Origin: Desulfohalobiaceae bacterium
GTDB lineage: Bacteria > Desulfobacterota > Desulfovibrionia > Desulfovibrionales > Desulfothermaceae
NCBI GenBank assembly: GCA_021737085.1
Contig: JAIPEP010000001.1
Location: 1 to 55,819, forward strand
DNA length: 55,819 bases
Direction of reading: 5' to 3'
Part shown: positions 1 to 2,848 of the stretch, piece by piece
Numbering within the stretch: position 1 is the stretch's first letter
Layout: each line of letters opens with the position of its first letter
Translations under genes and position numbers: made by a program
The notes under the pieces: generated by a model
Told to the model about the DNA's origin: nothing
Seen by the model: only the letters and a program-made list of their open reading frames with translations
Database searches by the model: none

Positions 1-784
1 GCGGGCCGAAGTAACCGGCTTTTTCCAGCTCGTCCTGGCAGAGGATGATGGCTTCGTCGATGTAGTCCTTCTTCCGCTTCTCGCCGATGATGGCGTTTAC
101 CACCACGCCCACCTCGGGCTTCTCGATGGAGAGATCGCCGTAGGCTTGGAAGAAGGCGCTCTTCATGAGCCATTCGTGGCCGGTATGGGGCACGTTTCGG
201 GTCTGGTGGGCCACGGTGCGGCTCCAGCCCTTCTGCTCCTTGATCACCTGGCGCATCTTCAGCGGAGGCAGGAAGTAGGAGGTGTAAGGCTCATTGATGG
301 CCGGCTCCTGGAGCAGGGTAATCTTGCCGGCCACGAACTTGTCCTTGTAACTGTAGGTACGGTCGCAACCGGGGTGCTTTTTGTCCGTAGTCCCGAACAC
401 GGACTGGCACATGGCCTCGCGGTCGTATTCGAAGACTTCCTCGACCTCGAAGAGGGCCAAGGGATTGCCGTCGAAGGACAACACCAGGGACTTCCCGGCG
501 TCCACCCCGTATTCGCTGATCTCCTGATCGCTCATGTCGAAGAGGATGGGGATGGGCCAGATGGTCCCGTCGGAGAGGGTCATGTTCTTGACCACGGAGT
601 CCACGTCCTTCTTCCCCATGAAACCCTCAAGGGGAGTGAACCAGCCATAGGCAATACTGATAACTTCGTTGGCGAGCTGCTTCCGGATGGGATACTGGGG
701 GAGCCCCTGAATCGCCTCCTTGGCCTCGCTTGGCTTCATGATCCTTTCTTGGATTTCCTTGCCGCCGTGTCCGATCTCGGCCAT
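1..784 (-). CDS. sat: Dissimilatory ATP sulfurylase (sulfate adenylyltransferase), 3' end cut by window
   Basis: Catalyses ATP + sulfate to adenosine 5'-phosphosulfate + pyrophosphate, the cytoplasmic first step of sulfate respiration. I translated the first 261 residues by hand from the minus strand; the family is usually about 420 residues, so the C-terminal part lies outside the window. The nucleotide-binding motif QTRNVPHTGHE is at residues 194-204, and the N-terminal PUA-like part (AYGWFTPLEGFMG, 45-57) is clear. The ATG follows AAAGGAG at good spacing. The gene has its own promoter region, a Rex-like operator and a 14-codon leader ORF that copies its start region. No cys genes are adjacent, which fits a dissimilatory rather than assimilatory role. 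Confidence 0.95.
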   Translation of the reverse strand, partial: MAEIGHGGKEIQERIMKPSEAKEAIQGLPQYPIRKQLANEVISIAYGWFTPLEGFMGKKDVDSVVKNMTLSDGTIWPIPILFDMSDQEISEYGVDAGKSLVLSFDGNPLALFEVEEVFEYDREAMCQSVFGTTDKKHPGCDRTYSYKDKFVAGKITLLQEPAINEPYTSYFLPPLKMRQVIKEQKGWSRTVAHQTRNVPHTGHEWLMKSAFFQAYGDLSIEKPEVGVVVNAIIGEKRKKDYIDEAIILCQDELEKAGYFGP

Positions 785-807
785 ATCACGTCTCCTTTCT
801 TTTAGCG

Positions 808-852
808 TTACCTTGCTGGTTTCCGTTTGCCGCCTTCTCCGACTTCCGCCAT
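808..852 (-). CDS. 14-codon leader ORF duplicating the sat start region
   Basis: Encodes MAEVGEGGKRKPAR, which mirrors the Sat N-terminus MAEIGHGGKEIQER. The match extends upstream: both starts are preceded by AAAGAAAGGAGACG, then GATATG, so the ribosome-binding site and first codons look like a 68-bp tandem duplication. The stop codon lies 24 nt before the sat ATG. Either it is translated as a leader that couples ribosome flow to sat, or it is a silent relic of the duplication; the intact SD and an ORF ending before the second SD favour translation. Inference only. Confidence 0.6.
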   Translation of the reverse strand: MAEVGEGGKRKPAR

Positions 853-980
853 ATCTCGTCTCCTTTCTTTAACCTTCCCGGCTATGGGTACTCTCCGCGA
901 GGCTTTCTTCGTGGGTTCGCCGTTTTGTCAAGGCTGATCTCACGGGGCAAGCGAACCGGCCCATATATAGGGATACCCGA

Positions 981-998
981 GCACAAAATAATTTGTGC
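981..998. promoter_or_regulatory. Perfect 7-bp-arm palindrome in sat promoter
   Basis: GCACAAA and TTTGTGC flank ATAA. It overlaps the Rex-like site by six bases and lies just downstream of the likely sat -10 region. Its half-sites face the opposite way to a Rex operator, so it is either a second regulator site or the by-product of three spaced TTGTG-type half-sites. Confidence 0.45.
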
Positions 999-1010
999 AG
1001 TAATTAACAA
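993..1010. promoter_or_regulatory. Rex-like operator upstream of sat
   Basis: On the minus strand the site reads TTGTTAA, TTAC, TGCACAA. The Rex consensus is TTGTGAA-N4-TTCACAA, with TTGTTAA as a common half-site variant, so the second half has one mismatch. It overlaps the probable -10 region 3' of a TTGACA box, where a repressor would block RNA polymerase. NADH-sensing Rex is known to repress sat in Desulfovibrio vulgaris Hildenborough, which supports the assignment. Confidence 0.6.
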
Positions 1011-1029
1011 GGCCGTGATACCCTGTCAA
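1002..1029 (-). promoter_or_regulatory. Probable sat promoter
   Basis: A perfect TTGACA lies at 1024-1029 on the minus strand. A weak AT-rich -10 candidate (TTAATT or TAATTA) follows 16-17 bp later, inside the Rex-like site. This gives a transcript leader of about 200 nt before sat, including the leader ORF. Confidence 0.5.
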
Positions 1030-1079: not shown

Positions 1080-1199
1080 TTACAAAACCCTTTTAACAAG
1101 GCAGTGCAGGCGGTCTTTCGCCAGAGGCAGTATTTTTTGCTGATCTACTTGCTGAAAAGCGAGCTTGTGAAAAAAAAACAAATTGTCAAGCCCCGACAT
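1080..1199 (-). CDS. Possible 39-residue ORF upstream of sat
   Basis: Begins with an ATG preceded by AAAGGAG (10-nt spacing) and encodes a short basic peptide starting MSGLDNLFFFHKLAF. It contains a run of nine Ts and lies between the PurD-like gene and the sat promoter. I recognise no family. It could be a real small protein, or simply the 3' untranslated tail of the upstream gene. Confidence 0.2.
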   Translation of the reverse strand: MSGLDNLFFFHKLAFQQVDQQKILPLAKDRLHCLVKRVL

Positions 1200-1312: not shown

Positions 1313-2848
1313 CTACCCCTGTCTTGCCGCGGCGAGAATGGCGTCTGCCAGGGCAAAGTGGGAGCCGATATCCTCCCGCAGGTCGAGACGGTTGCCTTGG
1401 GCATCCTCCCTGGGCACCACCCGCACCTTGTCGGAGCGATATGCGGCGAGGACCCGATTCGCGAGCTTGTCCGCCACTGGGCCGCGCTCCTGATCCGGTC
1501 CCACGGTGGCGTTCGCGTTGAGGTAGGCCACTCTGGTCCCGTCGGAATAGAGCCCCCGTTCCTCGGAATAGCCCATGCCCGAAGGCACCAGTTGCAGATT
1601 CTTGTTTTTGAGGTATTTGAGGTCGATCTCCACGGGCTCGTATTTGGTCACGCTCCAAGGATAGCCTTTCTGTCCGTCCGGTCCTCCCGGCCCGGTGACC
1701 AGGGCAGTGCACAGAGCGATCTGGTCCTCGCGGATTTCCGGCTCCACCCGGTCCAAACGGGACTGGAACATGGCCCGGACCAGGGCGCCGAAGTTGCGGA
1801 TCCGACGCACCACGGCCTGAAACTCCGGCTCCCCGGGGCGAATGTTAAATTCGCAGACGCGCAGATCCAGGGGTCTGGCCCCTTGTTCCACATCGTGGGA
1901 GAAGGAGACGATGCAGCCGGGATAGAGCACGCAGGGCCGCAAGATCCCCCGGTCCCGCAGGGCCTCGATCATGGGCCTGGCGATACGTTGGGAAACCATG
2001 TCCAGGAGCTCATTGGACTCGAAGGGATGGGGGGAGATGCTGCCCATACCGCCGGTTATGGGATTTCCCTTGCCCGCCGGGCCCGGGTAGCGCTCCGGAT
2101 AGTCCAGGGAGGTGGGCAGAACCCGGAAATTCCCCTCTCCGTCCACCAGGATGGTGAAGCTGATCTCCACCCCGGACATGCGGGATTCGATCAACAGGGG
2201 CCAGGGCCGGTTGTGAAACATCTTGCGGTAGTCCTTTTTGTAATCCGCAAGGAGGGTATCGTAGACCTCCTTGATCTCCCAGGCGTCGAGAATGATCCGG
2301 GCCCCTTTGCCGGAGGCGCTATAGGGATATTTGAGGACCACGCCGCCGAAGCGGTGCAGAAAGTCCAGGCAGACGGCAAAAAACTGGGGAAAGGAACGGG
2401 CGTCCACGACCTCCCAGTCGTCCGCCACGGGAATCCCGGCTTGCCAGCAGAGTTTTTTGCACTCTGCCTTGTCTCCCTCGATGAAGGCGGCTTCGCTCTC
2501 CAGGCCGGCGATGCGGTCCCCGTAGCCGCTGTCCCGGAGGAGGTCCACTATGCCGCCGTACTGCAGCGCTTCGGGCAAGGGGAGCACATAGTCCAAGCTC
2601 CCCTGATTCAAGGCCTGTATTATGGCTTCCGCATAGGCCTGGGTGCTGTTCTCTGCGGTGGAGAGGAAATCCACAGGCCAGTCGAACCACTCCGGCCCGG
2701 CGAGCACGGGCATGGCGCTGGTGCCCCTGAGAACAACCCCACGGTAGGAGGCGCTGTCCGTCTCGCTGGCAGCGGTGGACATCACCTGGGCGCTCAACAG
2801 AGTCCTGGCGTCTGTTCCGGCGAAGCCTATCCTGTATTGCTGGCTCAT
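1313..2848 (-). CDS. PurD-like ATP-grasp protein (phosphoribosylamine-glycine ligase family)
   Basis: 511 residues, against about 425 for typical PurD. The ATP-grasp core is recognisable: GDKAECKKLCWQAGIPVADDW around residue 125, VLKYPYSASGKGARII around 170, and FNIRPGEPEFQAV near 345 for the metal/ATP site. The usual N-terminal GxGGREHA motif is absent; the N-terminus reads GFAGTDARTLL instead. This suggests either a strongly diverged PurD or a paralogue with another amine or acid substrate. The ATG follows AAGGAG at a slightly long distance. It lies alone between the DUF2156 gene and sat, both on the same strand. Glycinamide ribonucleotide synthesis is likely but not certain. Confidence 0.7.
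   Translation of the reverse strand: MSQQYRIGFAGTDARTLLSAQVMSTAASETDSASYRGVVLRGTSAMPVLAGPEWFDWPVDFLSTAENSTQAYAEAIIQALNQGSLDYVLPLPEALQYGGIVDLLRDSGYGDRIAGLESEAAFIEGDKAECKKLCWQAGIPVADDWEVVDARSFPQFFAVCLDFLHRFGGVVLKYPYSASGKGARIILDAWEIKEVYDTLLADYKKDYRKMFHNRPWPLLIESRMSGVEISFTILVDGEGNFRVLPTSLDYPERYPGPAGKGNPITGGMGSISPHPFESNELLDMVSQRIARPMIEALRDRGILRPCVLYPGCIVSFSHDVEQGARPLDLRVCEFNIRPGEPEFQAVVRRIRNFGALVRAMFQSRLDRVEPEIREDQIALCTALVTGPGGPDGQKGYPWSVTKYEPVEIDLKYLKNKNLQLVPSGMGYSEERGLYSDGTRVAYLNANATVGPDQERGPVADKLANRVLAAYRSDKVRVVPREDAQGNRLDLREDIGSHFALADAILAAARQG

Follow-up and report, generated by a model that had tools for sequence, protein, structure and literature searches.

Apparent lineage-specific tandem duplication of the sat translation start region, with a 14-codon leader ORF, in a Desulfohalobiaceae bacterium

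In a Desulfohalobiaceae bacterium, the start of sat, the gene of sulfate adenylyltransferase (ATP sulfurylase), is present twice. How did the upstream start arise, and does the short ORF that it opens matter for the expression of the gene? The locus lies on the minus strand at the edge of the window, i.e. the whole stretch of 55,819 nucleotides that was analysed (contig JAIPEP010000001.1), with the following features:

2..784, minus strand: 5' part of sat (residues 1-261), start ATG 784-782, cut by the contig end.
759..870, minus strand: tandem duplication with a period of 68 bp, ungapped core 759-802 and 827-870.
853..870, minus strand: ribosome-binding region of the leader, copy 1 (AAAGAAAGGAGACGAGAT), part of the repeat with 759-802.
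785..802, minus strand: ribosome-binding region of sat, copy 2 (AAAGAAAGGAGACGTGAT), read directly.
808..852, minus strand: 14-codon leader ORF MAEVGEGGKRKPAR followed by TAA (810-808), read directly.

Direct reading of the minus strand confirmed what a sequence-only reading of this stretch had described, namely two copies of the start region 68 bp apart, the upstream one opening a 14-codon ORF. Copy 1 is TTAAAGAAAGGAGACGAGAT-ATG (ATG 852-850) and copy 2 is CTAAAAGAAAGGAGACGTGAT-ATG (ATG 784-782). The repeat between 759-802 and 827-870 covers 44 nt with 86% identity and no gaps, and with gaps it reaches about 811. The AAAGGAGAC sequence ahead of sat is invariant in five aligned family loci. 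The leader was also said to stop 24 nt before sat; the gap is short indeed, but it measures 23 nt. The frame of the leader differs from that of sat (68 mod 3 = 2), and its TAA is followed in frame by CGC TAA (second TAA at 804-802), giving two in-phase stops. An N-terminal extension of Sat was ruled out on these two grounds, the other frame and the tandem stops. We also observed that AAGAAAGGATC-ATG at sat codon 16 (739-737, minus strand), inside the gene, looks like a third SD-start; it is probably a chance likeness, since it encodes an ERIM stretch common to close relatives.

The identity of the gene is given by the Pfam domains PUA_2 (PF14306) and ATP-sulfurylase (PF01747), both above cut-off, whereas the NCBIfam PRK04149/sopT match falls below the whole-protein cut-off because sat is truncated here. 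Another contig of the same genome (C165) overlaps the window end and carries the remainder of sat, followed by a small gene without a name and by the start of an iron-sulfur gene, taken to be aprB. Upstream of sat, the window encodes a PurD-like ATP-grasp protein (1313-2848, minus strand) that scores under the purD family cut-off; in the remaining family genomes searched, its homologue lies on a different contig from sat.

The likeness of the two copies was compared with that of other start regions. The 23-nt start motif has two sites in the window, just these copies, with 0.00 expected, and the 19-nt core of the motif, with up to three mismatches allowed, has two further weak matches genome-wide. 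A scan for start duplications, which took in 1.33 of the 2.36 Mb of the source genome, placed the sat start at the top of 1,626 ORF starts, with 38/45 identical positions at a lag of 68. The runner-up (L221, frame MSEVGYRRSDIGGRI) reached 33/45, a score that looks like the reflection of a simple TCGGA-type repeat, and all the others stayed at or below 27/45. Among 387 starts from the window and the relatives' loci, with the window sat excluded, the maximum was 26/45. The two adjacent direct copies, each including a Shine-Dalgarno (SD) sequence and a start codon, are thus alike beyond chance and constitute a duplicated translation-initiation region. The genome scan also returned short-lag repeats at L149, L194, L197 and L160 (contigs C13, C58, C61 and C24 of the source genome, respectively), for example GTTTCAATTCACGCCCCCGTGCAGGGGGCGAC and GTAGGAACTGACCTGATGCAGGAAGGGATTGAGAC; from their sequences, these look like CRISPR or similar arrays.

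Is the upstream copy shared by related bacteria? We searched 79 other sat loci, from Desulfohalobiaceae relatives out to Nitrospirae and Archaeoglobales, of which one (L060) was left out because of too little upstream sequence. An upstream copy or uORF was found in 0 of the 78 other assessable loci, among them the seven closest homologues whose upstream regions are complete; all 78 are in the single-copy state, and they score at most 26/45 against 38/45 in the window. When aligned with two family genomes, G003 and G004, the window has additional sequence separating the promoter from sat. The sole congener (G001) stands outside the comparison, as its contig ends inside sat. Neither DNA searches nor a search through the neighbouring ATP-grasp gene recovered its sat upstream region; the 298 bp that come after the ATP-grasp gene in this genome bear no resemblance to the sat promoter. 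Tandem duplication, one of the two explanations offered in the sequence-only reading, is therefore well supported, with the second copy present in the window and at no other assessable locus. A conserved uORF in related genomes, the absence of which that reading had named beforehand as evidence against its own proposal, is lacking: no ORF stands at the same place in the 78 loci, the congener not being readable. Judged from this comparison, the leader is no conserved leader, and the best reading of the locus is a lineage-specific tandem micro-duplication of the translation start region.

The region upstream of the leader contains two elements that overlap each other:

1001..1029, minus strand: probable promoter of sat, TTGACA-17-TAATTA, read directly, overlapping the Rex-like site.
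993..1010, minus strand: Rex-operator-like site TTGTTAATTACTGCACAA, matching 11 of 12 consensus positions.

The TTGACA element is conserved in five aligned loci. Because a strict promoter scan did not report TTGACA-17-TAATTA, the promoter is counted as inferred. The Rex-like site was scored against a Rex-operator consensus. Of the eight closest loci, the window among them, six have a site matching 11 of the 12 positions ahead of sat. Over 76 sat loci the count is also six, all among the closest homologues, where shuffled sequences lead one to expect 0.2. The columns of the site are conserved across the five aligned loci, and the source genome encodes a protein with a Rex N-terminal domain (Rex-type). 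Upstream of sat, the Rex-like sites come after TTGACA elements; a further TTGACA region near 1165-1190 (minus strand) has a poly-T Rex-like site, a weaker match by eye. As the promoter and the Rex-like element both precede it, the leader should form part of the sat mRNA.

The position of this element also bears on whether the duplication could be an artefact of assembly or strain mixing. The source genome is a fragmented draft of 178 contigs (89% complete, with 4.9% contamination), and sat is cut off by the contig end; both would fit such an origin. On the other hand, the copies differ at 7/45 core positions and by indels, differences that would not result from simply mis-assembling a single repeat. 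Moreover, the Rex-like site stands at -226 in the window, and subtraction of 68 bp gives -158, between the positions in G003 (-136) and G004 (-175), which is what a duplication inserted downstream of the promoter that the relatives share should give. We therefore regard an artefact as very unlikely.

Closer comparison gave no support to the suggestion of the sequence-only reading that the leader frame is constrained at the protein level. Over nine aligned leader and sat codons there are six differences, three nonsynonymous and three synonymous. The leader substitutions I4V and H6E depart from residues that are invariant in seven close Sat homologues, and for this reason all three nonsynonymous changes, polarised against these seven relatives, were placed on the leader branch. 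One of the synonymous changes probably belongs to the leader branch and one probably to the sat branch, the third being ambiguous; the leader branch thus carries three nonsynonymous against about one or two synonymous changes, close to the neutral expectation. Past codon 9, the copies can be aligned only with indels. Purifying selection on the leader peptide was not detected in this comparison, which has low power owing to the short sequence, and conservation of the peptide is undetectable. These substitutions do not speak for a constrained leader frame, and the residues MAE-G-GGK shared by leader and Sat are explained by descent.

Differences between the copies are unevenly spread, with 1/23 in the start signal and 6/22 in the body (Fisher p=0.047, post hoc), a weak hint that initiation, rather than a functional peptide, may have been retained at the upstream copy. 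The body has diverged (6/22) about as far as fourfold sites have between the source species and its congener (18/64). The duplication may accordingly be as old as the genus, in which case it is perhaps more than a transient neutral event.

The leader resembles the conserved bacterial uORFs and leader peptides sought by uORF4u (PMC10219788) in being short, in having its own SD and in lying in a 5' UTR, but it differs from them in being found in no relative and in its undetectable peptide constraint. A regulatory leader peptide, the translation or stalling of which senses a metabolite and controls sat in an attenuation-like manner, would suit a short ORF with a strong SD before a central gene of sulfate reduction. 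However, neither the leader nor a conserved peptide occurs in any relative, and the leader has no codon run suited to sensing. The terminator scan revealed no terminator-like site in the region and the Rfam scan gave no match, so that neither a terminator nor alternative hairpins of an attenuator were found between leader and gene; the sat SD is not sequestered. This explanation is extremely improbable.

RNA folding predicted both start regions to be largely unpaired. With the transcript start placed at 960-1000, the sat ribosome-binding site (RBS) was predicted to be about equally accessible whether or not the upstream copy was present; for a hypothetical transcript start at 900, the results were more variable. 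Relief of an occluded sat SD by translation of the leader was ruled out, as both SDs are predicted to be open. The proposal that a translated leader tunes sat thus came through in part: the anatomy of the locus makes translation and re-initiation plausible, but tuning finds no counterpart in the RBS accessibility, which is hardly altered without the copy when transcripts start near the predicted promoter. According to a review, intercistronic gaps in Escherichia coli are typically <30 nt, and re-initiation, not de novo initiation, is expected there (PMC5972666); the 23 nt between leader and sat fall inside this range, a spacing over which bacterial ribosomes commonly re-initiate.

The arrangement recalls a bicistronic design or translational coupling, with a first SD, a leader of <20 codons, a stop and a second SD just before the main gene. 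It differs in that the second SD, that of sat, is placed after the leader stop and that there is no occluding structure to unfold; an SD within the leader cistron, or one occluded until the leader is translated, was not found here. Selection could still have preserved the duplicated start as a loading site of bicistronic type: after loading at the first, strong SD, ribosomes would translate the 14 codons and stop by the second SD, so that sat translation is raised or buffered, with start and stop mattering and the peptide irrelevant. The full SD and its spacing have been kept in the upstream copy (the 1/23 against 6/22 differences given above), the tandem in-phase stops begin 23 nt ahead of sat, within re-initiation range (PMC5972666), and engineered bicistronic designs with leaders of <20 amino acids raise expression (PMC5995908). 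Yet those designs have the second SD inside the first cistron (PMC5995908), whereas here the leader stops before it. The leader is found in one lineage only, the sat RBS is already open and removal of the upstream copy changes its accessibility little, and the p-value is marginal as well as post hoc. We consider selective retention as a loading site unlikely, and somewhat more doubtful still that the gene has acquired a natural bicistronic-like leader from its own copied start, retained because it loads ribosomes onto sat, with selection acting on the start signal while the peptide drifts.

A single tandem micro-duplication with a 68-bp period in this lineage, leaving a leader that is present in the mRNA and translated, with sat output little changed and the peptide without a role, is in our judgement the probable explanation. 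The event would have copied the SD, the start codon and about 14 codons of sat into the space between the conserved sat promoter and sat, and the upstream copy would later have diverged into the 14-codon ORF that ends 23 nt before the gene. In the alignment of the copies, one AAGG precedes TTAAAG at the left edge and another stands at sat codons 13-14, and these could be the micro-homology involved. The duplicated segment would have begun just after the first AAGG, in the 5' UTR, and extended to the second one, in codons 13-14, about 62 bp, with a small later insertion; as such a segment would give nearly the observed arrangement, a micro-homology-mediated origin is likely. In its head-to-tail copies, 68-bp period and presumed AAGG edges, the locus is like the short tandem duplications that arise by micro-homology or slippage in bacterial genomes; it differs from the usual ones in that the sat copy includes a translation start and that the copies have diverged by ~15% and by indels. 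The leader is probably translated, since a full SD and start were kept in open RNA. Ribosomes that end on the leader could re-initiate at, or pass to, the nearby sat SD, and sat would also be initiated directly. The net effect of the leader on sat output is probably small, and we infer that the peptide itself has no role.

The duplicated start of sat is a modest, lineage-specific curiosity. If neutral, it would show clearly how the duplication of a start region gives rise to a short new ORF upstream, and would caution that a leader may resemble the downstream protein through mere descent. If selection has maintained the start, the locus would present a naturally occurring bicistronic leader that arose by self-duplication before a central energy-metabolism gene.
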